From IMG/VR virus record IMGVR_UViG_3300020410_000018, positions 1-49,902 of that record: a stretch of 49,902 bases of DNA, one strand, 5' to 3'. The stretch's first letter is position 1, and the number at the start of each line of letters is the position of its first letter. A model generated the notes under the pieces. That model saw only the letters and a program-made list of their open reading frames with translations. It did not search any database and was not told the DNA's origin. The translations under genes and the position numbers were made by a program. Shown here piece after piece: positions 4,560-44,712 of the stretch. This DNA is from a virus.

Positions 4560-4927
4560 CTCTGCAAGAACTACTCAAACTCCATGACGAGACGCACGCC
4601 AAATGTCGTAAAGTTATGGAGATAAAAAATAACGACTACACTGGTGGCAAAGAAGCGACAGATATATTCGCTAATTTTAAGTCATCTCAGATTCTGGGAG
4701 TGCACCCTGTAACCGGTATCCTGATGCGTATTATTGACAAGTTGCAACGCATCAAGACATTCGCTAATGACGGTATGTTGTCCGTTCCAGATGAATCGGT
4801 TGAAGATGCGTGTGAGGATATTGTCAACTATGCGATCCTAGCGAAAGCGATGTTACTAGAATCGAGGGAGAGTCTTAGAAAACAAAGGATCAAGCGGGAG
4901 GTGGAGGAGATTGTTAAAAAGGGCTAA
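4556..4927 (+). CDS. DUF1599-type nucleotide-modification-associated protein, MazG-like
   Basis: This 123-residue protein shows the DUF1599 pattern: K-x-x-DY (K24-N-N-D27-Y28), a FANF turn (38-41), R58-x-x-D61-K62-x-x-R65, and a helix with E83-D84-x-x-E87-D88-x-x-N91-Y92. The family belongs to the all-alpha NTP pyrophosphatase fold. Related phage enzymes cleave nucleotides or accompany base modification. I see no hypermodification enzyme nearby, so dNTP-pool tuning is the more cautious reading. Confidence 0.7.
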   Translation: MTLQELLKLHDETHAKCRKVMEIKNNDYTGGKEATDIFANFKSSQILGVHPVTGILMRIIDKLQRIKTFANDGMLSVPDESVEDACEDIVNYAILAKAMLLESRESLRKQRIKREVEEIVKKG

Positions 4928-5964: not shown

Positions 5965-8900
5965 TTAATCATCTAATGGTAAAAAGTTATTTGTGTGTCC
6001 TCGCGTCTTGTAGTGATCTTCAAGCCACTTTAATCTTATCTGTTTTCCTTTATCAAAAATAATCTTTCTGGTTGGTGTGGGAACAACCGGTCTATACATC
6101 CACCCGTTGTAGGTATACTTAACTCGGTCTTTACCAACTTTGTTAGAACTCAAAGTGTTGTTAATCTCAGCCCATGACAGACCCAGATTATTGTATCCCC
6201 GCATAACCCGTTTGAGTTCCTCGTTTAACCGCTTTCTGTGGAAGAAAACACGGTCATAAAGCTTACCAACGTCAGATTCAGTCATCTCCGACTGTTTAGT
6301 CATATCTGAAAAACCAAAACTACGGTAATCTTGAACGTGGTTCTTAAGATACCTTCTAAAGTTTTGGCCTAGATCGACAGGTTCCGATCTTACGGGTTTG
6401 AGTTCACCAAGAAGTATCTCAAATGGTGTATACCGCCCTTCAACAGTCGGATCTCCCGCCGCTTTGATGGCTTGCAATATCTTCATTGGTGTGCGTGGTC
6501 CGTATGCTGACTTTAGAATGTATCCCAGCCCTGTCGCTATGTTTTCAGCAGACCACTCATCTTCACCCACACGAATTCTATTGCCATAACCATCGTTATT
6601 GTTAATAACATCAGTAACAGCACCCACCAGTATCTGTTCACCAACATAAGGCTTAAGCATCCCTTTAAATGTTGACCCCATAGCAGAAGCTACACCCTTA
6701 CCCGAAATCAAATCGTTAATACCCAGTGCGAATGGTTCTGCGACCGTAGAATACGGGTTAAAGTATGTGAGGTTCCAACGATGGAGATCTTTGCCCTTAC
6801 CAAAATAGTAGAAAGTGTTAGTGGCTGAATACCAAGGCAACGCTTTTCTTAAACCTTCTTCCTCGTCTTCCCCAATTCCAGCCATCTTCTTTAAAAGAGC
6901 AGGAACTGTGATACTAAAGAATGGAACTGTTAGCATGAACCCTGCAAATCGCTTCCTGCCTCTGCTTGCGATGACTTTGTTTTTACTAAACGATTCCTGC
7001 CACCATAATTTTTGAGTGTTGACCACTATTCGAGGAACCTCTGCCGCGAATCGGACATAAGGTGCAATTAGCAATCCAGCTTCAGTTTGAGTAATAGCTT
7101 TAATGAATGGTAGTGCCTGACTGTATGATTGGGCAGTCATCTTTACCTTCTTTGCGGCGAGTTTCTTCATCGAAGATGAAGGTGTCCCATCTTCATTTAG
7201 CAAATGGGCGAACTCTCTTGTGCTACTTTCGCCATCCAACTCAGATTTTGCCGCACGAACTAGCGTGTCTAGTTCAAATTCATACAATCCTATCTTGTAA
7301 TAGGCATCCATAGCCGATGCTAAAGCACTTGCTTTGTTGCTTAACCGGCGGAGTAATTTCTTTGAACCCTTTACAGCTTTTAATTTATCAATTTGAGAAC
7401 TTAAATCCTTAATCTCAACCTCGATTGACAGAGGTGTCTTGTTACCCAATAGAAGATCTCTAAGAACTTCAGCATTAAGCTCATCTCCCCAGACGTTCAC
7501 ACTCCTTAATGCCGATAATTCCGCATCCATGTCTGCCCTAGACCCCCTCGCGGCTCTTACGACCATTGACTCTTCGCGCCAGTCAGCTTTTCCGAACCCT
7601 AGAGTTCCCAAAACCTCTTTACCTACTTCGGGGATACCTCCAAAATAGCCTTGAGCGGGACCAAAGAACAATGCGTTACCATACATATTCCTCTGGTAAA
7701 AGGTAGCTGACCCAAGGGTCTTCATACCCATCGCCGCCCCTGTTAGTTTTTGAAGTGCTCTAACTATTGCCAGATAAAGCTTACCGTGAATAGTCTCAGC
7801 TTCTCTGAATTGGGTGTGGAACAGGTTTCTAAGGGATTCGTGTGCATCTGGGCGAGCATATTTTCCTTTGAACGGACTCCAGTCCAACGAACTCCCATCA
7901 GATTTCATCTGCATCCATCCCTCATACTTTGGTTCGTAGTCAGGGTCTTCCCGACTTTGTTTTTCGTCCTCCAGAAATTCTTTTTTAGTAATAAGCCACG
8001 GGTTCGATCCTCGGCTTCCGTGGTCAACAATGTTATTCTGCATTTGTTGATTAGCCATTACGCTTCCCGCATGGACAATCGTAAACAAAATGTTTTCTAT
8101 CCCCGACTGGTCATCATATTCACCTAGTATTTTTCTGAGCGGGGATGGGATATTATTCTTCTCGTTATTGAATTTCTTTAGAAGATCACCCAAGCTATTA
8201 GACATACTGCCTCGATCCTTGAATACAACCCGTCTTTCCAAATCTGCTCCAGTGTATTCCTCGAATTCCTTGCGGAATGATTTGTCCTCATAAGTTTTGA
8301 GGAACTCATCGAGCATTTGGCTACCTCTAGTTTCTCTATCGGTTTCCGCGAAAGCTTCGTCTTTAGCCCTTTCCATAGCTTCAGCTTCTGTAAGTGGAAC
8401 TGCGCTTTCATTCTTAATTTGTTTAGCAGTGTATTTTAGGTGCTCATCGGCAAAAAAGTTTATCGCCTCCGTCCTTGCGGTCTTGTAAGCAGGATCTTTT
8501 CTTACTCGTTGCGCGAAATCTGAATCATCAAACATGCGGTATCTACGAACAATGTAAATACCACGCTGGTTATCAAATGTCATTGCGAACTCCTTTTTAC
8601 TAAAGGTGTCCTTAAATATCTCGTTCCCCTTTAAGGAGAGTTCATCAACGACCTTTCTAGCACTGACGATCAAAGCATGCATCTCTGGCGAGATTGCTAA
8701 AAGATCAGAGAGGGCTTTATTCCTCTCTTCTATCATAACCTGAAGGTTTGACTGTCGGATTTTATTAATGTTCTCTATCCTATTCAGTTTAGCTAAAGCC
8801 TTACCCTCATCGGTTGGGTCGTTATTTTTTTCCTTGCGGTATTCTTTCTCCACAAAATCCGCTTGCTCATCTGTTAACTGCGACCCCCTATTAGACCCAG

Positions 8901-11900
8901 ACGCTTTAGAAATAAGTGACGCAGGAATTTCAACCCCCCTATCTTGTGCCTCTTTAATAATTCTGTCGTGGTCTGCTTTGAATTTTTCAGCAATGTGTTT
9001 TGTTTCTCTTACAAACCCATCCCTGTCTGTCTTGAAGTCACGTATGTCTTTGTTACCGTATCCAAATAACAACTGCCAGAATTTGTTGAGTCTGGTGCGT
9101 GGAGCTTCCCAATCTCCTACTTGATACAGAGGGACATCAAGCATCTCCATAAACGGAGTAAAGTCTAGACTCTCTGAATCTAATTCGTTTGGTATGTAAC
9201 TGTTGGCACCATACCGTGACTGTAATCTGGAGGGTAGTTTAAAGGAACTCTTAACGCCATCACCTACTTGATCTTCACTTAAAACCTCATGCTCTAAAGA
9301 TTCGCCCTTTACAATACGAAGCTCAGGCTCTGAAGATGTTATATCACCTTGTAAGATATCCTCTTCACGGAATGCTATCTTTTGAATAACATTACTTTCA
9401 TGACCGGCATAATATTGTATAACGTAATTAGGATCATTAGATACGTGTAAACCACCCCGCAAAGCTATGTTGCCCTGTAACGGAGTATTCTGCCTACTGT
9501 CCGCACCAGATACGGCTTTACCGTCTTGGAATCTAGAGGCTCTGTAGCCTACGAGTCTTCCGTCTTCGAGGATCTCGAATCGGTGTTCAGGTAATCCGAT
9601 ATCGCTCCCCAGTAATCCTCTTCTTCGGACGTTAGCGGTGGATTCTGTAAAATCTCGTCCGTCAACCCCTCGTTCTGCTCTGAAGACCTCATTGGCGGCG
9701 GAGGCGTAGTCGGGTGCTTCATCGGTTCCTGATCCATATTCTGCGTGTAGGGCTTTTTCATAATACCAAAGGATAGCTTGCGCTTCTGCGGGAACCATGC
9801 GGACCCCTTTTATTGTTTCTAATTTAGCGATTGCGTCAGTCATTGCAAGCCTAATAAACCTGCGGTGCGCTCCGCTGGTTGGGGCTTCGACTAATTCAAA
9901 ACCGTCAATAATCTTAGATAGACCATTCGTGGCTAATCTTAATTCATTATCAAGCGGGGAAGCGGCGGACATTTCCCCGCTAAATTTCATCCACTGCTTA
10001 GTTTTAGGGTCAAAATATTTCTGCCTATTCTCGGCGGAAGTCCAATGCTTCTCTAACGCGAGAACCATATCAACACTTCTCTTACGTTTACGACCAAGAC
10101 CGGCGACCTTTAATAGCTGACCCGACTTATCGTTTTCCAAATACTTTGCAAGAGCTTTATCGAATCGGGCTTTCTTCTCAGATAATTCTTTTCTTGTGGC
10201 TTTCCGTATCTGGGCACCCGCAGTCCTGCCAAATGTCCGCATGAACCAGCGGTCCATAGTAATGGTGTCAAAATCACCATTTAGGTTGTTATAGAAAGAA
10301 CCTAACTTAGCTCCGAAGATTAAAGAGAACGGCACATTTTCGTCGATCAACTCTCCGTTTGTTAGTCTCTTAGCAGTGGCATTTTTAAACCCAAACTTGT
10401 CCTCTAATTCTTGCCTTAACTCTTTGACAGTCCCGCTCTTCGATAGAAAATCACTGACCTCTTGCCATGAGTAATCCTCAACCATCTTGTCGATCAGTCG
10501 AAGGTGGTCTTTTATCTGAGATTGCCTGTCGCCTCTTATCCAAGAAACAGGCACAACCTTTTCTTTGCCCGTCTTAGTGACCTCGATTTTTTGTCGGTCA
10601 GGGTTAAACTTTTCAGTCGGGGCGAGCTTGCCTGTCTTCTTCCAGTTTTGGTATAGTGCCCATGAATCTTCGGTCTGTTCTTTAACCTTGTTACCATTAG
10701 AAGTAACAGTCATTAATGTTTTAAGAACAAAACTATCTTCTGGATTCTTAGCGTCCTCATCAAGCTCCGCGAATATGTCCATCGCCATGTTAACACGCGA
10801 CTCATACCACGAAACAAATTCTGGATACTCATTTAATGCTCTTTCTAAAACCCCTGCCAAACGGTCACCCATCTGACTCACATCATTGAAGAAGGCTTTC
10901 TTTTTGCGAGGCTCTTTCCAATCTTTGGATAAACCTCTCCAATTTTTACTCCAATCAATTACTTCCTTATCCGACATAAGGTTGCGCATGAACTTCGCCA
11001 ACTCATGAACTTTGGAACCTTTAATTCCAGAATCCATCTCGTCCGCTCCTTTTTCTAAAGTAGCATCAACAACTGTTTGGGCAGAGTTAACATTCTCCCA
11101 AAAAACACCACCTATATCTGCACCCTGACGAGACTGGAGCCTTTTTATAGGTGTCGGTTTATCCTGTTTGTTATCTACGACTTCTCTTAGTCGTTCGTGC
11201 GTAGGCTTATCGTTTTCATTTTTAGATGGGTCTACCTTTTCATACTGGGCATTCTTAACCCAGACGGCAAAGTTTTTAAATGGGTTGGTTTCCCCCTCTT
11301 GGTGTGCCCCAAGATTAGACACCATCAGAACTTCGTCAGCTTTAGTGAATCTTTTATCCGTGTGGAAAGTAGTAACCCCATTACCATCCTCAGAAATCCT
11401 GAACATGTAGTTAGCTGTCGCCGGATTATAGGCGAGTAAGTCCCACTCTTTTGGATCCAGTGAGGCTACATCTATTTCTTCGTTGGCAGAAATAAGCGTT
11501 CCGGTTGGTCCACCTACTACAGCTTTCGCTCCTTGGGTGTAAACTGTGGTTCCTTCTTTTACCACATCTTTAAGACCTTTACCCTTCAATTCTGGGTTGG
11601 TTAGTATAAAATCAGTTAATTTAATTTCTGAATTAACACCCTTCCGATTCGCCGCAGAGTTAATCGCATTGATTAACTCACCAACAGTCATTTCTTCTTC
11701 CAGTTTAAACTTGGCGGAAGTGCCCCCAATAAAAGATTTGTATGGTCCATCAACTAAACGAACGCCGACTTCCTTAGCATCCGTGCTCATAAGACGGACA
11801 TTGAAAGCGTTGAATTTTCTAGACTTCTTTTTGCCTCCCTCGTCCATACTTATTTCGAGAGAGAACGGCATGACCCCAATAGGGTAATTCGGATCATAAA

Positions 11901-14900
11901 ATTCACCTTCTTTGTCGCGGCTGAAACGACCAAGGCTTATATTCGTATGGGATAACAACACGGGTTGACCGATAGCGTCATCCGGTAACGGGTTATACGT
12001 GCCCATTCCTGCTGTTACAACCTCACCTCTTGTTAGTCCACCAAGACCATCATGGTCTAGGGGTAGTGAACCCGCACTACCTAATCGGGATTGGAGTGTT
12101 GAAGTTAGCGGTGGTTGCGCCTCTTCTTCTTGAGTAAGCTCAGTGTCCGTCTCAGGCTCCTCGCCCTTCATTCGGACATTTTTTTGAGCTATAAGCTGTT
12201 GGACAAATTTTTCTAAAGAAGCTTCTGGGTTGTTAATGTCAAAGCGCATACCGTTTGGAGTTGCACGGTAGTCTGCTTTCATAGCTCTAATTTCCCTAGT
12301 GATCCTGTTAACAGCTATACGCATTTCAGGGGAAATTTGATCCAGCTTTTTGTGGTATGTAATTTTTTCTACAAACTTCTTTAGATAGTTAACGAAAATT
12401 TCTACGAGACTAGGATTCCTAATAAGGAAGTCAACCTGCTCATTTGTTTCAGTTCCTGTAAGAACTTTTTGTGCGTGAATCCTCAAAGACTCTTCCGCCA
12501 GAACAAATTTTTCTGTCTGCACTACATTCTCATCAGTGCTCATTAAGCGATCTCTCGCCGCTTGCCTCTCGTTCTCTGGGTAATACTGTGTGATTATCCT
12601 CTCTGTATCGGCTTCTGTAAGTGAATCCATGATAGATTGGATTTCAGCCTCCGATAAAGTGGCATACGAAGCGGCGTGGGCTATCTCTTCGTTAAGAATA
12701 GCCCCAATAATGTGCTCCCTGTTGATTTTCTTCCCGCCAGATTTAGCCACAATGTGGTTAATGTATGCGGCGGCTCTTCTACCATTAAATATAATTGATT
12801 GTGTTTCACCATCCCACTCAGCTATCACATCAGTTGTATTGTCCATCACGATGTTAATCTCTGATGGCACGAAATCCGCCGCCCAAGCGGAGTAAGTTTT
12901 AGCTTGTTGGTCTAAATTCTGGGCAACACCGGCATCTTTGCCCATCCCCATAAGTGAAGCTAACGAAGCTCTTCGGGTCTGGGAACCGTGTATGGATCTT
13001 GCAACCTGATCCCTGAATGATGCTTCAGTTTCCGGCTCTGTATTAATGCCTCTTAATGTAAGATCCAGCGAACTCTCAAGAGCTTTATTAAACTGTTGAG
13101 ATAGTTTACCTCTATTCAAGACGACTCCGATAGCATCTAGGATTCTTCGGAAAAGACTACGCTCACCAGCTTCTATACCTAAAGATTTTACGTATTCTTG
13201 GAACTTAGGAGAAGTCAGGAATACGGCAATAAACTCTTCTAAATTTTTAGTCCCATATAGAATCGAATCAGGTGCATTTTCAGACTCGGCTTTCTTCTTT
13301 ACCAAATTAAGAATAGCCTCCAACCGGCGGATAGCTTTATTCTCTGCATCTGATCTCGATTCTGGGGCGAGTCTGGTGATTCGGGTCGTAGCCGCATGCA
13401 CATATTCGTGGAGCAAAACATCAGCGATACCGCGAGGGGATGACCGACCTACATTGATTGAAACTACAGAATTCCCATTAGCGTCTATGGTAAATACTCC
13501 AGCATATTCCACACGAGTGTTTTCTATTTCAAAATTTACGGATCTTATAAAAGGCTTATTCTGTAAGAGAACCCGTGCTATTAGTGCTTGGACTTTGTTT
13601 TTACCTCTACTTATTTTTTCCAGTGCAGATATAACTGATTCTGGATCACCAGAAACTAGACCAAGCTCACTTACCTGTGCGTTATTTCGCTCCGCATTAA
13701 CATCCTGCGACCTACCGTCCATTAAGGCTCTAGCGTAGAATGTGTCCACGGCTTTCCTAACGTCTTTGAAAAAATCAACAGCTTTGGTGGTCGTGATGTC
13801 CTGATCTGAGCCAGATAGTATCTGTAACTCCTGTTTAATAAGGGCTAAGTAATCCGCATCTTTACTAGGGGACAGTTCAACGGATGGTGAAGATAACGCT
13901 AATAATCTAAATGAATTTCTAATTACTTGACCAGCTTCTCCCAGTTCTCCATTCTTTATAGCTACTTGAAAATCAACTGCTTTTTGATTAGTGACCGCAT
14001 TACCCTTCGCCATGAAGTGCATTAGAGCCTCGAATGTTTGCTCAGGCGTAAACCTAGATATGTCTTTGCCTGTGTAGTATTCGGTGGATAGTAGATCCTT
14101 TACCCTGTTAAACAATTCAGGTGACGTAGATAAAGCGGAAGCACCTCCAGCATGGATTGATGAAACATAATCAACTAACTTCCGCTGAGAGATAGGTTCT
14201 TGTGGGGAGGTTCGTGGTGGGACATACGATGAATCAGATCCGTTTTCTTCTACGTCGAACGCGGCATCGTTATGTATATCTGTGTCTGGTTCCATTATAG
14301 CAACCAAACTTCTTTTAGCTCGCTTAGACCGCTCAACTTGTTGTCGAGTGAAATAATTACTGTGCTTATTTGTTAAAGCTTTTAGATCGGCAACAGCCGT
14401 TTCTACGGATTCGTTATTGTTAATCTTATTGATGTATCTATAAGCAGAATTCTGGAGGTCAAGACTCAGTGCTACAACTGCCGACTCAATGAAATCTTTA
14501 TTTAATGTAATTTCTGGATTTGAAGCGAATACCTCTTTTAACCGTGTCAAATCTGACGACTGCTCAAGAAGGGTCGTAGCTTTGACTTTTCTTCCGGTCA
14601 GTGGACTTGTAACTTTCAAATCAGTGCCCACTTCAACCTCTTGTCTAAGTCTTGAGTTTTCTGATGCCAACTCTGAAATAGATGAGTAGTCCTCTTCCAG
14701 CACTCCAACACGGTTAAATGCTGTCTTGGCAGAAACAACCCCACCAGACTCATGAACCATGATGTCTTCCAAGACCATCTGGTCACCTTGTTCTCTGAAC
14801 CTTAAACTCGGATTAAGCTTACCGTCTGCCCGTAGCTTTTCTATCTTAGATTTAGGAACAACGACTGGTATATTACTCTCGATGAGAGTTAACATTCCTA

Positions 14901-17900
14901 CGGGATCATTATTGAATACACCCGCCCCGTTACTATCTACATACACCTTACCGGCCTTACCGTATGCTCGTGGTAAACTCGCGCCACCTTCCGGCATAGA
15001 CGTGGGAAGAGTGGGGAACCGCTTATTAGTTCTTTTCTGAGCCTCTTTACTTAGAGCACTAAGGGTAGCAGAGTCTGCATTCTCTAGAGAGATACCTAGC
15101 TTGTCTAATTGTTTTGGTCCTAAAGTGTGTGGGTATCCTGTTTCAACAATAGACTCAATGGCTTTTTCTTCTGCCTCTGTGATTCCCCTAGCTTCAGCCT
15201 CTTTTAATTTTTTAACCTCTAGATTGTGTCTAGCCTTGGCTTGCTTTACAAGCGCATCATAAGATGCTTTCTCTACTACGTCTCCTCTATCAAGGAGTGC
15301 TTCTAAATTCTTCTTTTTAACCTCTAACCCCGCATCTTTGGACAGAGGTGACTCATTAATTTCCTTAACTAGCTCTTGGTATTTTTTGTATTTGTTTTCT
15401 ATCTGTTTAAGAACCCTTTTAAGATTCTCATCAGGCTTATACTCAAGTTGTTTAGAACTATGTGTAGAAGTTACGTGATTCTTTCCTGTCTTTGTTTCTC
15501 CCTCGCTACCCTGCAAAATTGTCGAAGCGGCTTCTGACCCAGCTATAGATGGGTCTGGTGCAGGGGTCTGATTTGTATTCGTAATAACTCTATTAGCTAT
15601 TTCCGATATTGTTTTCTCTGATGCCTTGTTTAGTTCTTTTTCAATTCTGTCGGCATCTTCCTGTATGCCTTCTTCGGATTGGTCTTCGATAAATTTAAGG
15701 GCATCTTCTTCGGCATTGGGTTCGACCGTGGTCGGTTCTGCTCTCTTGTATTGTCTAACAATTCGCTCAACCTCCGCCGCCGTAGTTGGGGAACCAGATG
15801 CTCGTAGACCCTCGGTTAACTCTTCAGCAATAACGTCCTGCTCATATTGCTGGAATAAAGATTGCTCAAACCTAGCGAGTGCCGCAGTGTCGGTAAATCT
15901 GTCGGGTGCTACCCTTCTTGCAACAGAACCTATTGCAGAAGTTCCTGCGCCGATGGTGGCACCAATTTGAGCGGCATGCCATGCTTGCTGAAAACGCTCT
16001 AAAATAGGGGTGTCACGGTTGGACGCGATGTCGATAATAAAACCATTGAGGAACTCGTCAAGAGCCTCTTCAATTCCTTCGTCAAATGCGTTGCGGAGAA
16101 CTCCCTGTTTTAAAACACCGTGACGTTGCTTTTTGAGAACTGTATCTATGGACTTCTTGAGAACTTTTTGAAAGGATATATCTCCTAAGTTGCGGCCCAA
16201 AACATTTTGTCCAATTTGTTTCATCTGCCCGTATGTCATGCCTTTTAAAAGAGCATCTTCCATACCGCCACGACCAATAGACCCCATAGCAGATGTGATT
16301 ATACCTGTTATAGTCCCCGCCGACAAAGCACCACCTAGTGCGTAGTCGTGGGCATTTTCTTTAACACGTTCAGCACTCCAACCAGTTTGCCAACTTCCAT
16401 CGGCATTTTTATGTTTGGCTGTTAAATCGTCGCTTACATTTTTAAACACCGTTCCGTATGTGTTCGTTGCCGAACGGGTAGCGGCGGGGACAAACGTGGC
16501 AGTGACGATACCAATTTTACTGGCGAGTTGACTATTGTAAGCTTTGACGACTGATAAAACTCTGTCGGCAGGAACATCCCCTAGTAATTGTTTGCCTAAA
16601 ACTCGTTGGGCCGCCATCTCAAGCGTCTCACCTTTTGCGACCTTGAGCGTCCCAGCAAATGCCTGTTTGAGAACGGATTTAGCGGCTACTTGAGTCGAAG
16701 TCTTGGCTCCTAAATACCCTGCCCCTACAGCTAGTGATGCCCCCGCAGTAGGGACTGCACCTGCCGCCATGACTCCCGTCAAGGTCATGTCAACTAGCAT
16801 TGGGGCGATAGCTTCACCAACCTCAGTCCAGTAGCCCCGCTCCATACCGAATATACTCGCCAGTTCGTTGCGGTGCGCTCTTCCCTCTTGAATATCATCT
16901 AAGCCTTGTCGCGCCCAATCGCTACCAAGCATCGCGCCCACACCATAAAACAATGTTCCGAACCCTTCGGCTCCTACGCTATACAAAATTCCTTCTGTCC
17001 TTGCCCAAGCCTCGCTAAAATTTTCTTCGTCTTGCGCGAATTTTTCAATGATCTCGTGGTTCTTTAATCCTTGCTGTCTTCCATCTATAACAGCTTCATT
17101 CCATTTATCGCCATATTCCTCCTGCAAGACATCACTCTTGTTTTTGAAGGTTTCGGTCAGTTTGAATACTCTTTTTTGTTCAGCAAGTTGTTGAACTTCT
17201 GGGGATACCCCCGCTTTATCTAGAGCGTCTTTGAATTTTTCCTTTTGAGCCAATAGCGACGAATGCACAATGGGTAATTGGAAAACACCTTTGTGGACAT
17301 TCTTCGCCATGTCCTCCTCGTCCCCGTGAAAGAGGAGCATATTTTTAGCGTCAGCATTGTTGACGACAATTTGATCTATGGCATCCTGCACGACATCCAT
17401 TGAATGTCCTGTGCTTTTGTGGATCTCTAATATTAAACCCTCCCGTATTTCATCGAAGTTATCTGCGTAATACTCCTGAGCATCTTCGTAGAGTGATTCT
17501 TCGGTTATTTGACGTTGCCTCCCCTCATCGCCTATAATCCCAGCTAAACCAGAACCTAAAGGGCGAGTTAGGTTTTCCTGTAAAAAATCTGTTACGTTAT
17601 TCCATACAGTATCACCAGTATCATAGGTGGTGCGGTGAGCATATGCTTCTGAAAGACCGTCTATCTTTTCTTGGTATTCTTCAAAACTTGCCTTTGAATC
17701 AACAAAATTAGCGATGTCTGCTAAGGCATGGTATCTTTTTTTAATCGCGTGTCTCGGTAGGTTATTAGACGTAGATACTTCCGAACCCCAGTATTCCAAC
17801 TCCAAGAAATTTTTGGGTGTGACCCCATACTCAGAACCAGCTTTTAACACATCACTGGGTGACATGCCTTCAGGAATCTCTCCCCCAAGAAAAACATTAT

Positions 17901-18516
17901 CCCCTTTTTCGTCTTGATAAACAGCGGAGAACACTTCACCGCGTTTATACATCTCCTTATAAGTTGCCTCTTTCCCCCTTCTTATAGATTCCAACATATC
18001 CGGCAAATCAGGATCATCTTCCGAAATCCCTCCTGACTCAGATAGAACAGTGAACTTTTTAATGTTCTCTAAATCTTCAGACTTTACAATCTCATCGCTA
18101 CTTTGGAAATCCTCTAACGCTTGTAATGCTTTAGGTTTTTTTCTAGGGTAGTAATCTGGTGTGATGTAATCGGCCCGTTGCTTAAAGTCACCTGTATACG
18201 GGTTATAAGCCAAAACTTGTTCCGCATCCTTTAAGGGGTCAGGGGTGTAAACTTTTTCTATTTCAAGAGCTACCTCGTCTTTGTTTTCTTCAGTTAAGAA
18301 ATCAAAGTCTATAAGAGCTTGGGTGAAGTTTGTGGTAATGTCCTGCTCTACAAATTCATCATACAAACCGGCTTCCTGCCATTGGGACCGAACGTGGTCA
18401 CTGTATTTTGTGAAACTCTCGATGGAGGGGTTAGTGTAGTTACTTGTTGCCTCCCATTCAGAATATGGAGTCTCGTTCACTTTTGGAGGGGAAATATTTA
18501 AGCTTTTGTCAGACAT
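5965..18516 (-). CDS. Giant 4183-aa polyvalent/internal-virion protein
   Basis: One frame of 4183 codons, a quarter of the window, in the position of the large ejected proteins of podoviruses. Visible parts: a charged N-terminus; small-residue-rich hydrophobic stretches near residues 560-620, 725-745 and 845-865, suited to membrane insertion; a coiled coil near 1020-1075; a zinc-metallopeptidase motif HEYVH (1703-1707); a second, degenerate one EEIAH (1943-1947); a conserved module with FYNNLNG and TMDRWFMRTFGR near 2750, which I recognise from large polyvalent phage proteins; a region near 2990-3040 (YRASRFQDG, HVSNDPNYVIQYYAG) that could be ADP-ribosyltransferase-like; and a hydrophobic segment near 3865. 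LQSR-x-G motifs occur at 2141, 2460 and 3098. It is probably packaged and ejected with the genome to protect or establish it in the host (inference from family). No RNA polymerase motif was found. Confidence 0.75.
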   Translation of the reverse strand: MSDKSLNISPPKVNETPYSEWEATSNYTNPSIESFTKYSDHVRSQWQEAGLYDEFVEQDITTNFTQALIDFDFLTEENKDEVALEIEKVYTPDPLKDAEQVLAYNPYTGDFKQRADYITPDYYPRKKPKALQALEDFQSSDEIVKSEDLENIKKFTVLSESGGISEDDPDLPDMLESIRRGKEATYKEMYKRGEVFSAVYQDEKGDNVFLGGEIPEGMSPSDVLKAGSEYGVTPKNFLELEYWGSEVSTSNNLPRHAIKKRYHALADIANFVDSKASFEEYQEKIDGLSEAYAHRTTYDTGDTVWNNVTDFLQENLTRPLGSGLAGIIGDEGRQRQITEESLYEDAQEYYADNFDEIREGLILEIHKSTGHSMDVVQDAIDQIVVNNADAKNMLLFHGDEEDMAKNVHKGVFQLPIVHSSLLAQKEKFKDALDKAGVSPEVQQLAEQKRVFKLTETFKNKSDVLQEEYGDKWNEAVIDGRQQGLKNHEIIEKFAQDEENFSEAWARTEGILYSVGAEGFGTLFYGVGAMLGSDWARQGLDDIQEGRAHRNELASIFGMERGYWTEVGEAIAPMLVDMTLTGVMAAGAVPTAGASLAVGAGYLGAKTSTQVAAKSVLKQAFAGTLKVAKGETLEMAAQRVLGKQLLGDVPADRVLSVVKAYNSQLASKIGIVTATFVPAATRSATNTYGTVFKNVSDDLTAKHKNADGSWQTGWSAERVKENAHDYALGGALSAGTITGIITSAMGSIGRGGMEDALLKGMTYGQMKQIGQNVLGRNLGDISFQKVLKKSIDTVLKKQRHGVLKQGVLRNAFDEGIEEALDEFLNGFIIDIASNRDTPILERFQQAWHAAQIGATIGAGTSAIGSVARRVAPDRFTDTAALARFEQSLFQQYEQDVIAEELTEGLRASGSPTTAAEVERIVRQYKRAEPTTVEPNAEEDALKFIEDQSEEGIQEDADRIEKELNKASEKTISEIANRVITNTNQTPAPDPSIAGSEAASTILQGSEGETKTGKNHVTSTHSSKQLEYKPDENLKRVLKQIENKYKKYQELVKEINESPLSKDAGLEVKKKNLEALLDRGDVVEKASYDALVKQAKARHNLEVKKLKEAEARGITEAEEKAIESIVETGYPHTLGPKQLDKLGISLENADSATLSALSKEAQKRTNKRFPTLPTSMPEGGASLPRAYGKAGKVYVDSNGAGVFNNDPVGMLTLIESNIPVVVPKSKIEKLRADGKLNPSLRFREQGDQMVLEDIMVHESGGVVSAKTAFNRVGVLEEDYSSISELASENSRLRQEVEVGTDLKVTSPLTGRKVKATTLLEQSSDLTRLKEVFASNPEITLNKDFIESAVVALSLDLQNSAYRYINKINNNESVETAVADLKALTNKHSNYFTRQQVERSKRAKRSLVAIMEPDTDIHNDAAFDVEENGSDSSYVPPRTSPQEPISQRKLVDYVSSIHAGGASALSTSPELFNRVKDLLSTEYYTGKDISRFTPEQTFEALMHFMAKGNAVTNQKAVDFQVAIKNGELGEAGQVIRNSFRLLALSSPSVELSPSKDADYLALIKQELQILSGSDQDITTTKAVDFFKDVRKAVDTFYARALMDGRSQDVNAERNNAQVSELGLVSGDPESVISALEKISRGKNKVQALIARVLLQNKPFIRSVNFEIENTRVEYAGVFTIDANGNSVVSINVGRSSPRGIADVLLHEYVHAATTRITRLAPESRSDAENKAIRRLEAILNLVKKKAESENAPDSILYGTKNLEEFIAVFLTSPKFQEYVKSLGIEAGERSLFRRILDAIGVVLNRGKLSQQFNKALESSLDLTLRGINTEPETEASFRDQVARSIHGSQTRRASLASLMGMGKDAGVAQNLDQQAKTYSAWAADFVPSEINIVMDNTTDVIAEWDGETQSIIFNGRRAAAYINHIVAKSGGKKINREHIIGAILNEEIAHAASYATLSEAEIQSIMDSLTEADTERIITQYYPENERQAARDRLMSTDENVVQTEKFVLAEESLRIHAQKVLTGTETNEQVDFLIRNPSLVEIFVNYLKKFVEKITYHKKLDQISPEMRIAVNRITREIRAMKADYRATPNGMRFDINNPEASLEKFVQQLIAQKNVRMKGEEPETDTELTQEEEAQPPLTSTLQSRLGSAGSLPLDHDGLGGLTRGEVVTAGMGTYNPLPDDAIGQPVLLSHTNISLGRFSRDKEGEFYDPNYPIGVMPFSLEISMDEGGKKKSRKFNAFNVRLMSTDAKEVGVRLVDGPYKSFIGGTSAKFKLEEEMTVGELINAINSAANRKGVNSEIKLTDFILTNPELKGKGLKDVVKEGTTVYTQGAKAVVGGPTGTLISANEEIDVASLDPKEWDLLAYNPATANYMFRISEDGNGVTTFHTDKRFTKADEVLMVSNLGAHQEGETNPFKNFAVWVKNAQYEKVDPSKNENDKPTHERLREVVDNKQDKPTPIKRLQSRQGADIGGVFWENVNSAQTVVDATLEKGADEMDSGIKGSKVHELAKFMRNLMSDKEVIDWSKNWRGLSKDWKEPRKKKAFFNDVSQMGDRLAGVLERALNEYPEFVSWYESRVNMAMDIFAELDEDAKNPEDSFVLKTLMTVTSNGNKVKEQTEDSWALYQNWKKTGKLAPTEKFNPDRQKIEVTKTGKEKVVPVSWIRGDRQSQIKDHLRLIDKMVEDYSWQEVSDFLSKSGTVKELRQELEDKFGFKNATAKRLTNGELIDENVPFSLIFGAKLGSFYNNLNGDFDTITMDRWFMRTFGRTAGAQIRKATRKELSEKKARFDKALAKYLENDKSGQLLKVAGLGRKRKRSVDMVLALEKHWTSAENRQKYFDPKTKQWMKFSGEMSAASPLDNELRLATNGLSKIIDGFELVEAPTSGAHRRFIRLAMTDAIAKLETIKGVRMVPAEAQAILWYYEKALHAEYGSGTDEAPDYASAANEVFRAERGVDGRDFTESTANVRRRGLLGSDIGLPEHRFEILEDGRLVGYRASRFQDGKAVSGADSRQNTPLQGNIALRGGLHVSNDPNYVIQYYAGHESNVIQKIAFREEDILQGDITSSEPELRIVKGESLEHEVLSEDQVGDGVKSSFKLPSRLQSRYGANSYIPNELDSESLDFTPFMEMLDVPLYQVGDWEAPRTRLNKFWQLLFGYGNKDIRDFKTDRDGFVRETKHIAEKFKADHDRIIKEAQDRGVEIPASLISKASGSNRGSQLTDEQADFVEKEYRKEKNNDPTDEGKALAKLNRIENINKIRQSNLQVMIEERNKALSDLLAISPEMHALIVSARKVVDELSLKGNEIFKDTFSKKEFAMTFDNQRGIYIVRRYRMFDDSDFAQRVRKDPAYKTARTEAINFFADEHLKYTAKQIKNESAVPLTEAEAMERAKDEAFAETDRETRGSQMLDEFLKTYEDKSFRKEFEEYTGADLERRVVFKDRGSMSNSLGDLLKKFNNEKNNIPSPLRKILGEYDDQSGIENILFTIVHAGSVMANQQMQNNIVDHGSRGSNPWLITKKEFLEDEKQSREDPDYEPKYEGWMQMKSDGSSLDWSPFKGKYARPDAHESLRNLFHTQFREAETIHGKLYLAIVRALQKLTGAAMGMKTLGSATFYQRNMYGNALFFGPAQGYFGGIPEVGKEVLGTLGFGKADWREESMVVRAARGSRADMDAELSALRSVNVWGDELNAEVLRDLLLGNKTPLSIEVEIKDLSSQIDKLKAVKGSKKLLRRLSNKASALASAMDAYYKIGLYEFELDTLVRAAKSELDGESSTREFAHLLNEDGTPSSSMKKLAAKKVKMTAQSYSQALPFIKAITQTEAGLLIAPYVRFAAEVPRIVVNTQKLWWQESFSKNKVIASRGRKRFAGFMLTVPFFSITVPALLKKMAGIGEDEEEGLRKALPWYSATNTFYYFGKGKDLHRWNLTYFNPYSTVAEPFALGINDLISGKGVASAMGSTFKGMLKPYVGEQILVGAVTDVINNNDGYGNRIRVGEDEWSAENIATGLGYILKSAYGPRTPMKILQAIKAAGDPTVEGRYTPFEILLGELKPVRSEPVDLGQNFRRYLKNHVQDYRSFGFSDMTKQSEMTESDVGKLYDRVFFHRKRLNEELKRVMRGYNNLGLSWAEINNTLSSNKVGKDRVKYTYNGWMYRPVVPTPTRKIIFDKGKQIRLKWLEDHYKTRGHTNNFLPLDD

Positions 18517-41941: not shown

Positions 41942-43261
41942 TTAAACAATGGAAGCGGCTTCGTTTCTCTTGAAAACGATGGCGTAACCAAACTCTGTTT
42001 TAATCGGCTTAGATGCGGACCCTAGAATTCCACGGAAGAAACCAATAGTCCCGTCAGGGTTGGTTGCTTCACTGAGGATGTTAGTCCATTTGAACTCACC
42101 CTTGTAGTCAACGGGGTTGAATGTAACTCCGTTAGAACCACCAAATGGTGCTGGGATCTGAGATTCAAACACATCTGGGTGGATAACGTAAGCTACCTCA
42201 TACTCCGCAGTGTCATAAGCAGAATCAACAGTGGTAAGACCATTAGTGACTTTGTATGGCTCAACACGAGTAATAGCTCCAGCATCACCGTCAGTGTAAC
42301 GTGGTGCAAGGTCATCAATCAAGTGGTAGAAACCACGGAAAGACTTCTCAACACCAAGTGGAGCTATGAGGTCACCAACGCGAGCGTTGTTGTAACGCTG
42401 GTCATCTTTGATAGAATCACTCTCGGTTGTCAGGAAGTTTGAAGCTTCCGAAGAACAAACAAGACCAAACACTGGACGACCATTCTCACGACCGTAGGCA
42501 CCTTGTGTAGCACCCTTACGGATCATCTGGAAATAGATCTTATCCATAACTGCGTTGGAAATATTGTCCTTAACTTTAGTGGCACCACCACCATCAAGGT
42601 CTCCGTCTGCCGCACCCAATGCGTCAGTAGTCTGACCCTCGTTAGCAGTGAGGAATTCAGATGCTTGATCTTGACGGCAGATAACAGTGTTGTCAGCAAG
42701 CTTGTCGAACTCGTCGCGGTAACGCTCTTCCCATGTGTGCCGTGTGGCATCTGAAAGGGCATCAATCACAGCACGAAGCTGATCTTGGCGATGGGCGGCA
42801 TAACGCAAGTCATCAACATTGATACGAGGAGATTCGATAATCGAACGCTCGATGCTGTATTTCTTGAGTTGCTTACCAAAGTTGATGTAGTTGCGCTGTT
42901 CGCTCCCAAGACCATTTGGCCCTTGGACATCGTTCGCGGCATCATCAAGAGGTTGGTCGAGAACGGAAGTCCCGAATACATTACCACCACTGTCAGTAGT
43001 TCCTACTGAGTGCCAGTTTGCCCCCACTGCGTTGCCTGTGACATCATTAGTCGGAAGCGCACGGTCGTAAACAAGCGTGGTTAGTTGATAGCCCATCCCA
43101 TCGGGGAAAGCTGTTTTTTTAATGAGGTCAATCCAAGGTGAAGTGTGTGTAACGCGCCTGTGGACATCAGCCCCAATGCGGTTAGCCTCTTCAGCGAGGA
43201 TCGTGTTAATTGCGGCAGTGCTCCCCTGAAGGAAGTCGCCAGAAGCTGGATTTCTAGCCAT
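41942..43261 (-). CDS. Major capsid protein, 439 aa
   Basis: Sits between the scaffold and head genes and has the size and composition of a podoviral HK97-fold capsid protein: N-terminal arm (MARNPASGDFLQGSTAAINT), a helical segment (YAAHRQDQLRAVIDALSDAT, RHTWEERYRDEFDKLADNTV), and a C-terminal strand-rich region (YEVAYVIHPDVFESQI, FKWTNILSE, FGYAIVFKRNEAA). Assignment is from context and pattern. A long structured leader precedes it and a TATAAT hexamer ends 3 bases before the ATG. Confidence 0.85.
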   Translation of the reverse strand: MARNPASGDFLQGSTAAINTILAEEANRIGADVHRRVTHTSPWIDLIKKTAFPDGMGYQLTTLVYDRALPTNDVTGNAVGANWHSVGTTDSGGNVFGTSVLDQPLDDAANDVQGPNGLGSEQRNYINFGKQLKKYSIERSIIESPRINVDDLRYAAHRQDQLRAVIDALSDATRHTWEERYRDEFDKLADNTVICRQDQASEFLTANEGQTTDALGAADGDLDGGGATKVKDNISNAVMDKIYFQMIRKGATQGAYGRENGRPVFGLVCSSEASNFLTTESDSIKDDQRYNNARVGDLIAPLGVEKSFRGFYHLIDDLAPRYTDGDAGAITRVEPYKVTNGLTTVDSAYDTAEYEVAYVIHPDVFESQIPAPFGGSNGVTFNPVDYKGEFKWTNILSEATNPDGTIGFFRGILGSASKPIKTEFGYAIVFKRNEAASIV

Positions 43262-43264
43262 GAT

Positions 43265-43270
43265 ATTATA
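43265..43270 (-). promoter_or_regulatory. -10-like TATAAT next to the capsid ATG
   Basis: TATAAT on the - strand, 3 bases before the capsid start codon, with no recognisable -35 box at 16-18 bases (CACATA at 17). It may allow a leaderless capsid mRNA in addition to a long-leader transcript carrying the structured elements. Confidence 0.4.
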
Positions 43271-43331
43271 AGTGTGTTAAATGAATATATGTGTCGCCCT
43301 TTAACATAGGGGACACGTCTAAGTTTTAGTA

Positions 43332-43391
43332 GATCCGCTCCTAGAACTATTTAAAGGCTAGAGCAACCGAACGGCTCAAATGCGGCGGATC
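43332..43391 (-). ncRNA. Structured element B of the capsid leader
   Basis: A 60-base unit on the - strand closed by the perfect 7-bp stem GATCCGC/GCGGATC (43385-43391 with 43332-43338). Its loop holds the second copy of a 27-base conserved sequence (43342-43368) beginning GGTTGCTCTAGCC and ending AAATAGTTCTA. Same conserved loop, different stem sequence from element A. Confidence 0.55.
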
Positions 43392-43404
43392 ACAGTCCAC
43401 TCAG

Positions 43405-43453
43405 ATCAGCTACGAAATAGAACTATTTAAAGGCTAGAGCAACCTAAGCTGAT
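43405..43453 (-). ncRNA. Structured element A of the capsid leader
   Basis: A 49-base unit on the - strand closed by the perfect 7-bp stem ATCAGCT/AGCTGAT (43447-43453 with 43405-43411). Its loop contains the first copy of the identical 27-base sequence (43418-43444). The AAATA/TATTT pair at its 3' part can form a small inner hairpin in this copy only. Confidence 0.55.
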
Positions 43454-43479
43454 GTTATATAATCAGACTAAGTTAAATA

Positions 43480-43498
43480 TTGGCATTGTCAATACCAA
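43480..43498 (-). repeat. 9-bp inverted repeat after the scaffold stop
   Basis: TTGGCATTG and CAATACCAA around a single T, with one G-T mismatch, 2 bases from the scaffold stop codon. It could be an operator or a weak 3' hairpin of the scaffold mRNA. TTGACA lies inside it on the - strand, but no -10 box follows at 16-18 bases. Confidence 0.5.
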
Positions 43499-43500
43499 GT

Positions 43501-44712
43501 TTATGCATTAGCGAAGGCGGACTCTACCCGCTCTTCAAACGTCATATCATCACTTACACTACCAGAAGATGGGGCAGAACCTGACATTGTTGGCTCTGCG
43601 CCTTCATACTCAGCTAATCTGTCCGTCAATACTTCGTTTTCTTTGCGCATGCTCATATACTCCCTAATAACGGAGGGCAATATCTGGGCACTGACAGAAT
43701 TATATGTGTAGTCCACAGGATGAATCACAGAAGGATCTACTTCAGCCGCTTTCTCTTGGATAGCCTTCATGTCCAAACCGTCAATGGAACTCAGGAAGGG
43801 TAGCTTCTTTTGAACCCTAGACACCACGTTTTTAGCGGCAAGCTTGCGGTCATTCAGCTTTTCAGCCGCCGCTAATTCAATTTTACGCTCCTCTGCCAAC
43901 TTTGCCTCATTTAAAGCTTCCGAAGCATTATTAAACATATCTTCCCTACGTTTCAAAATAGGGTCTATATCTTCTAAAATCCGGTAAACTCTAGCTCTAT
44001 CTCGATCAGTAGCTTCTGACAGAATTTCTGAAATCAACTCGTCCTGCCTCTGTTGATCTTTTTCAGCTAAGGCATCTACTAAATCATCTGCGGAGACTTG
44101 ATACTTATCAGCTATCTCTTTAGTTTCATCTATTAGTTTGTCGAGCGGATCAGTGACCGCATCTTTATAAGCCTGTGTTGACTCCAGATCCGTCATCATC
44201 TTTTGACTCTCAAAATCAGCTAACTTCTCCTGAAGGGCTTCTATACTCTCATTGGAAGTATCCCCAGAAAATTCTTTTAACTTACTATCCGCTTCAGCAA
44301 CTTGTTGCCGCAAAGCTTCTAGTTCGTCATTACTAGACTTGAGTTCTTCCTTTAACTGTTTGAATCGAGAAGCGGCTTTCGGAGTCCAGTCATCTCCGAT
44401 TTCTTCGTCCAAAGCATCCGTTGGGTCAAAGGACTCCAAGTCCTCTTTAGACTCTGGTTCTTCTCCAGCATCATCCTCAGTTTTTTCCTCGGTGACCTTT
44501 TCATTTTTTTCTTTAGGCTCCTCTTGTGGTTCCTCTTGTGGTTCCTCTTGTGGTTCCTCTTGTGGTTCTGGATCTTGTGGTGCTTCCAGTTTTGAAAATG
44601 CCGCATCTAGTGCGGAACTAAAATCCATCTGCTCTTCAGGCAAACTTTCAATAGCGTTATCACTTTCGACTACTTCTACTTCGGGTTCTGCGGCGGCGGT
44701 TTCTTCACTCAT
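43501..44712 (-). CDS. Scaffold protein, 403 aa
   Basis: Very acidic, helical protein located between the portal region and the capsid gene, the classical scaffold position. The N-terminus is Glu/Pro-rich with a four-residue repeat PQEE encoded by a 12-base repeat at about 44519-44570. The middle has long coiled coils (RFKQLKEELKSSNDELEALR, QQVAEADSKLKEF), and the C-terminus (SDDMTFEERVESAFANA) is a short helix of the kind that contacts the capsid protein. No protease motif seen. Confidence 0.75.
   Translation of the reverse strand: MSEETAAAEPEVEVVESDNAIESLPEEQMDFSSALDAAFSKLEAPQDPEPQEEPQEEPQEEPQEEPKEKNEKVTEEKTEDDAGEEPESKEDLESFDPTDALDEEIGDDWTPKAASRFKQLKEELKSSNDELEALRQQVAEADSKLKEFSGDTSNESIEALQEKLADFESQKMMTDLESTQAYKDAVTDPLDKLIDETKEIADKYQVSADDLVDALAEKDQQRQDELISEILSEATDRDRARVYRILEDIDPILKRREDMFNNASEALNEAKLAEERKIELAAAEKLNDRKLAAKNVVSRVQKKLPFLSSIDGLDMKAIQEKAAEVDPSVIHPVDYTYNSVSAQILPSVIREYMSMRKENEVLTDRLAEYEGAEPTMSGSAPSSGSVSDDMTFEERVESAFANA

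Follow-up and report, generated by a model that had tools for sequence, protein, structure and literature searches.

In the leader of the gene 32 mRNA of phages T4 and T2, an H-type pseudoknot lies well upstream of the start codon (67 nt in T4) and is followed by an unstructured A+U-rich stretch (PMC3014915), and autoregulation of gene 32 has been demonstrated. The element described here resembles that leader in being an H-type pseudoknot in a phage mRNA leader, placed well upstream of the AUG with an A+U-rich stretch after it. However, gene 32 encodes a single-stranded DNA-binding protein, and its leader carries one copy without an enclosing variable stem, whereas the gene concerned here encodes a capsid protein for which binding and repression are only hypothesized. 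The put RNA of phage HK022 is likewise a phage RNA that acts in cis, folding immediately downstream of a sigma-70 promoter, a position that is only predicted for our element; putL is located downstream of PL and its 5' end is base-paired (PMC9378689). In contrast to the present element, which forms a pseudoknot per copy before a capsid gene that is often followed by a terminator, put consists of two stem-loops in ~70 nt and belongs to early operons, and no pseudoknot is mentioned in that paper. Stabilization of bacterial mRNA against RNase J1 by 5' roadblocks is established (PMC3997798). Stem-loops of the ompA type are a further precedent for stabilization of an mRNA at its 5' end. These 5'-terminal stabilizers share with our element a structure at or near the 5' end (predicted in our case) of a highly expressed gene, but they are simple stems or protein roadblocks and not a duplicated, sequence-conserved pseudoknot. 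Finally, the flavivirus-type xrRNAs are compact pseudoknots that sometimes occur in tandem, as ours do; they act in the 3' UTRs of eukaryotic RNA viruses, and the element has no sequence or family match to them.

The window, meaning the whole stretch of 49,902 nt of viral DNA that was analyzed, encodes the capsid protein and its neighbors on the minus strand, so the mRNA corresponds to the minus strand and the repeat copy at 43418-43444 comes first. An intergenic gap of 239 nt (43262-43500) separates the 439-aa capsid ORF from a 403-aa ORF, both on the minus strand, and holds two identical 27-mers at 43342-43368 and 43418-43444 with a start-to-start spacing of 76 nt. The full RNA-sense repeat is GGUUGCUCUAGCCUUUAAAUAGUUCUA, which can be divided as GGUUGCUCUAGCC-UUUAAA-UAGUUCUA and is present twice before the capsid gene. 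No third copy was found in the window with up to three mismatches allowed, and the dinucleotide-shuffle expectation for such a repeat is 0.00. A first-pass annotation, made from the sequence alone, had claimed two identical 27-base repeats 76 bases apart in a 240-base gap. The repeats held exactly, with their positions confirmed and no other occurrence in the window, and the gap measured 239 nt. Comparison with related viruses, presented below, shows that the repeats very likely represent a cis-acting RNA element present twice in the capsid mRNA leader, each copy being an H-type pseudoknot (helices S1 and S2, loops L1 and L3) closed by a stem, P1. The features of the leader and its flanking genes are as follows.

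43501-44712, minus strand: 403-aa upstream gene, taken as the equivalent of N4 gp57 by position and length (inferred from gene order).
43487-43492, minus strand: -35 hexamer TTGACA of the predicted promoter, read from the sequence.
43465-43470, minus strand: -10 candidate TAGTCT with a spacer of 16; prediction only, a poor match.
43462-43467, minus strand: weaker alternative -10 TCTGAT with a spacer of 19; prediction only.
43447-43453, minus strand: copy 1 P1 5' strand AUCAGCU, forming 7 bp with 43405-43411.
43418-43444, minus strand: copy 1 pseudoknot core, 48.4 bits with the covariance model.
Copy 1, minus strand: S1a GGU at 43444-43442, L1 U at 43441, S2a GCUCUA at 43440-43435 and S1b GCC at 43434-43432.
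Copy 1, minus strand: L3 UUUAAA at 43431-43426, S2b UAGUUC at 43425-43420 and UA at 43419-43418.
43405-43411, minus strand: copy 1 P1 3' strand AGCUGAU.
43385-43391, minus strand: GAUCCGC, an alternative copy 2 5' strand in a competing fold with 43332-43338, unsupported by relatives.
43369-43377, minus strand: copy 2 P1 5' strand GAGCCGUUC, reassigned from the stem of the first-pass annotation and placed as in relatives.
43342-43368, minus strand: copy 2 pseudoknot core, 47.3 bits with the covariance model.
Copy 2, minus strand: S1a GGU at 43368-43366, S2a GCUCUA at 43364-43359 and S1b GCC at 43358-43356.
Copy 2, minus strand: L3 at 43355-43350, S2b UAGUUC at 43349-43344 and UA at 43343-43342.
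43332-43340, minus strand: copy 2 P1 3' strand GAGCGGAUC.
43262-43331, minus strand: 3' part of the leader, with one hairpin (GUGUCCCC...GGGCGACAC) and then an A/U-rich stretch to the capsid AUG; it has no Shine-Dalgarno sequence and differs among relatives.
41942-43261, minus strand: major capsid protein gene, 439 aa, identified by predicted fold and with 65 viral homologues.

Energy-based folding of the single copies gave results no better than those for shuffled sequences (z = -0.24 and +0.32), and minimum free energy programs are unable to show a pseudoknot. Because single-copy folding is uninformative, the case for a structured RNA depends on relatives. Searching viral contigs with the capsid protein yielded 65 homologous loci, and in many of these the core likewise appears twice upstream of the capsid gene; a loose pattern scan together with a second scan resulted in 111 distinct capsid leaders from uncultured phages, 99 of which contain the core. 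Among tandem pairs that fit the family, all those with the gene on the same fragment are in the sense orientation upstream of the capsid gene. The covariance model matches both window copies at E ~1e-9 as well as leaders elsewhere, and it matches 43 of 50 whole virus records, each exactly twice and with no further sites; the seven unmatched records have more divergent leaders. Since some of the 50 records had been used to train the model, the informative parts of this result are the exact count of two and the lack of further sites. In some viruses, extra DNA lies between the gp57-equivalent gene and the leader, and the elements stay with the capsid gene (in L106, the gp57-equivalent match ends at 4819 and the first copy is at 8019). 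Matches on viral contigs without a capsid gene (L073, L077, L124 and others) were discounted as chance matches in coding sequence; the 248-kb contig L124 contains at 1368-2980 four near-identical ATGAGCAATACATATTATGGTTGTTCTAACC... repeats that appear to be tiny coding repeats and match the pattern by chance. The loose pattern scan of genome contigs, which was not exhaustive, returned only chance matches (actinobacterial coding repeats and singletons), so absence from cellular genomes is unproven.

The core follows the order S1a (GGY), L1 (usually U), S2a (GCU-NNN), S1b (RCC), L3, S2b (N'N'N'-UUC) and UA. L3 is A-rich and 5-9 nt long, with AA before its final base in most copies, and the inner positions of S2 are conserved C·U and U·U mismatches, the former exchanged to U·C on both sides in L008 and its relatives. 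All three variable S2 pairs are formed in 158 of 166 elements, as counted in a scan that did not demand S2 pairing, and the variants include CUA/UAG, CUG/CAG, CCG/CGG, CCA/UGG, UCG/CGA, UUG/CAA, UUA/UGA, CUC/GAG and CUU/AAG, among others. In a 45-row alignment, 98.7% of cells are paired, covariation is 0.222 versus 0.106 when shuffled, double-changed cells number 18 versus 3.8 in shuffles (0/500), and slid structures fail. Four rows with a long L1 are misaligned by one column in this alignment, an error that biases against the structure and not for it. Exchanges are seen in S2 at column pair 24-37 (AU/GC/CG/UA) and in S1 at pairs 16-27 (GC/AU) and 17-26 (UG/UA/CG/GC). Shuffles disregard kinship, and for this reason S2 changes were also counted on the capsid tree, where the S2a triplet changed at least 13 times in copy 1 and at least nine times in copy 2, giving at least 22 changes in total. 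Moreover, S2 differs between the two copies of the same genome in seven viruses and is compensated in six of them (L008, L069, L087, L178, L327 and L375, the exception being L146), and in copy 2 of L003 the S1 pairing GGU/GCC is replaced by GAG/CUC. By comparison, then, the element meets the criterion for an H-type pseudoknot, namely interleaved helices that both show compensatory change. The near-invariant core letters GCU, UUC and UA exceed what pairing needs. As a separate observation, the leader of L061, whose capsid protein is 47% identical, contains GCU-CU-GCUCUG-GU-AGC-UAAC-CAGUUC-UA, which fits the same fold with S1 as GCU/AGC.

In relatives, the sequence of the closing stem P1 is not conserved, and its median length is seven pairs. 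Pairing of the flanks within a virus is 15.1 compared with 8.5 (sd 3.2) for flanks swapped between viruses (p ~6e-40, uncorrected for kinship). The first-pass annotation had enclosed each repeat in a 7-bp stem, and the letters of both are present: GATCCGC at 43332-43338 with GCGGATC at 43385-43391, and ATCAGCT at 43405-43411 with AGCTGAT at 43447-43453. The second of these held as the 7-bp P1 of copy 1. The first, proposed for copy 2, was set aside as probably not native, since relatives pair the sequence adjoining the core; it leaves a 16-nt overhang and competes with the P1 of copy 2 suggested by relatives, which is GAGCCGTTC/GAGCGGATC (sense), pairing 43369-43377 with 43332-43340 directly next to the core through eight pairs and one mismatch. 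The two stems are also not the whole structure, and the pairing of the core itself as a pseudoknot had been missed. The broader inference of a functional structured RNA is supported by the 99 of 111 leaders, the variation of P1 and the covariation of the core, and the check that had been suggested, a search for relatives before other capsid genes whose stems vary, gave a positive result.

One alternative is that the repeats do not act as RNA and instead represent a duplicated DNA site for regulator binding or recombination, or simply a recent duplication. The identity of the two copies in the window speaks for this reading. However, only five leaders have identical cores in both copies, and the compensatory changes in S2, S1 and P1 across ~60 viruses make sense only for single-stranded RNA, which leaves almost no room for a DNA site. 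A search of Rfam 15 (4227 models) gave no match at the gathering cut-off for the window or ten related loci, permissive Rfam searches of two leaders returned unrelated weak matches only, and no similar motif was found in the open-licence literature searched. The earlier statement that the motif matches no known RNA class therefore held as far as Rfam is concerned. Given the leader pseudoknot of T4 gene 32, the element is new as an RNA family but known as a kind.

Divergent leaders show how far the arrangement can vary. In a long-loop group (L020, L021, L034 and others), the element is present once, with a hairpin in L3, and another interleaved helix pair that varies in step, GAAGC..UGUCGC..GCUUC..GCGACA, takes the place of the second copy; helix 2 of this replacement covaries as GUCGC/GCGAC, AUCGC/GCGAU, GUUGC/GCAAC and GUCGUU/AACGAC. 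The replacement pair was seen at L021:2700-3000 and also in the long-loop leaders L022, L031, L034, L038 and L382. On the capsid tree, short versus long loop is a single change. As one lineage has swapped the second copy for another pseudoknot, two copies of the exact fold are not strictly required. In several long-loop leaders, sequence immediately 3' of the first pseudoknot is able to pair with sequence just before the AUG (10 bp each in L021 and L038). A third leader type (L036, L046, L049 and L055) has a GUCC/GGGAC or GACC/GGGUC hairpin whose CAGU/CAAU loop is complementary to an ACUG/AUUG located downstream and itself followed by CGCUA; as read by eye, this may be another pseudoknot, ending in GCGCUA.

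Of 50 short-loop leaders, 43 have a site resembling TTGACA-N16-18-TATAAT ahead of copy 1, and sites resembling TTGACA-N15-19-TATAAT with at least 10 of 12 matches are present in 38% of leaders versus 2.4% of shuffles. The median spacing between the -10 and P1 is 11 nt, placing P1 at ~+4 if the start is ~7 nt downstream (a predicted and unmapped start), and the transcript should therefore begin at P1 or within a few nt of it. The prediction is thus of a sigma-70-type promoter with a start ~0-10 nt from the P1 of copy 1 and a capsid mRNA 5' end in copy 1; the -10 of the window itself is weak. Of 60 leaders, 16 have a strong intrinsic terminator immediately upstream, and in 25 of 58 relatives a strong terminator occurs within 350 nt after the capsid gene. 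In L110, L121, L151 and L327, the -35 TTGACA is inside the loop of a terminator hairpin (e.g., AGGGGG-TTGACACCAA-CCCCCTTTTTT), so that terminator and promoter are fused in a compact unit. This context bears on a put-like hypothesis, in which host RNA polymerase, bound at the capsid promoter by the nascent RNA, would become resistant to pausing or termination. For this hypothesis, the elements begin directly after the predicted promoter and a long late gene block lies downstream. Against it stand the structural differences from put described above and the terminators after the capsid gene, which fit an isolated unit better than a read-through operon; antitermination is inferred only, and we consider it unlikely.

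Between copy 2 and the AUG lie 46-131 nt that are G-poor and variable, often with one hairpin and with no Shine-Dalgarno sequence. No clear Shine-Dalgarno sequence was found in the 26 window genes examined, suggesting a host with Shine-Dalgarno-independent initiation. Consistent pairing of the leader with the start region was not found in the short-loop group, and pairing between leader and start codon was rejected for that group and is suggestive in the long-loop group only. One rival hypothesis that remains possible is a tandem translational operator, in which a phage protein (the capsid protein, the gp57 equivalent or another), perhaps as a dimer, would bind both pseudoknots and repress or license capsid translation, by analogy with T4 gp32 and the pseudoknot in its own leader. 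The exactly two near-identical sites, the near-invariant core letters and the G-poor unstructured stretch from the element to the AUG favor this hypothesis. On the other hand, binding data and a known partner protein are lacking, copy 2 lies at widely varying distances from the AUG, and the intervening stretch has neither conserved sequence nor conserved pairing in the short-loop group. Conservation and duplication of the core speak for a tandem ligand-sensing aptamer, or riboswitch. Aptamers can take the form of small pseudoknots with a conserved core, and tandem arrangements are known. However, there is no conserved expression platform, with neither a terminator/antiterminator choice nor sequestration of the start site, and the element occurs with one viral gene only and never with metabolic genes, all of which makes a riboswitch very improbable.

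The capsid protein has no Pfam, PHROG, PDB-sequence or isolate-phage match, and the gene call of the first-pass annotation held by predicted fold. A 12-sequence AlphaFold prediction was of low quality (pLDDT 47), and a model from 80 relatives (pLDDT 78, pTM 0.79) was used instead. Its best structural match in the PDB is the phage N4 capsid (9e99, E 1.7e-12), and the top matches are capsids of Escherichia phage N4 and other Schitoviridae. Gene order and lengths also match N4 (window/N4, in aa: portal 753/763, then 98/115, 403/405, capsid 439/401 and 188/208), with a giant last gene of 4183 aa in the window versus 3500 aa in N4. The genome (window 5965-48055) thus looks like that of a remote N4-like (Schitoviridae-like) lineage, as judged by capsid fold and gene order. 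Capsid and portal show no similarity to those of N4 by sequence or profile comparison, and neither has detectable sequence similarity to isolates. In N4, the gap before the capsid gene is 11 nt and there is no leader, in contrast to the window lineage, so the leader is a feature of the latter. The giant 4183-aa ORF (5965-18516, minus strand) sits where N4 encodes its virion RNA polymerase; no solved structure, RNA polymerases included, matches the protein in sequence, and it has no confident PHROG match. A host search with the capsid profile gave no match in 289 genomes of the phylum Verrucomicrobiota, 289 of an alphaproteobacterial class and 369 of a gammaproteobacterial class. A distant capsid relative of 535 aa was seen at L389:8820-10427, on a 41.7-kb contig of a Bacteroidota-phylum assembly with similar gene order, and the element was not found in its 180-nt capsid leader.

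What, then, does the element do? Sequence alone does not decide among the functions listed in the first-pass annotation (tandem protein-binding site, antitermination element, mRNA stabilizer or ligand sensor). Many mutations in the knot have been compensated so that it stays intact, from which we infer an important role in shell production, probably in preservation or control of the message. The reading we favor, while granting that it may well prove wrong, is that the pair forms a 5'-terminal guard that would preserve the capsid mRNA. The P1 of copy 1 would bury the 5' end of the mRNA, and the two compact pseudoknots, one after the other and possibly with a host or phage protein bound to them, would block 5'-end-dependent mRNA decay and keep the unstructured stretch, which lacks a Shine-Dalgarno sequence, accessible to ribosomes. 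The most abundant virion protein would then be made from an mRNA that is long-lived and translated at a high rate. In support of the guard are a family that is capsid-only and sense-only, two copies in all 43 of 43 scoring records, compensated pairing in S1, S2 and P1, a predicted promoter immediately upstream, a capsid cassette that is often bounded by terminators, and the absence of conserved pairing with the start region in the short-loop group. The guard remains an inference without RNA, decay or protein-binding data, and it is weakened because the start is only predicted, the -10 of the window is weak, and the host and its RNases are unknown. The near-invariant letters beyond pairing also count against it, as they suggest specific recognition over a passive block, and so does the lineage with a different pseudoknot in place of copy 2; under whichever function, the near-invariant unpaired letters make a specific partner likely. 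A bolder hypothesis, which we regard as unlikely, is that the element is a phage counterpart of viral nuclease-resistant RNAs, with tandem pseudoknots that would mechanically stop 5'-to-3' decay or 5'-end-dependent cleavage. On this equally unlikely view, a capsid-mRNA element would have evolved independently of those in eukaryotic viruses and been held at exactly two copies.

Whichever reading proves correct, the comparison yields a well-supported RNA family that is absent from Rfam and tied to the major capsid gene of an uncultured phage lineage, one that resembles N4 by fold and gene order only. Because the pair rules are precise, the function of the element is testable. The element points to a post-transcriptional layer in the supply of capsid protein in DNA phages.
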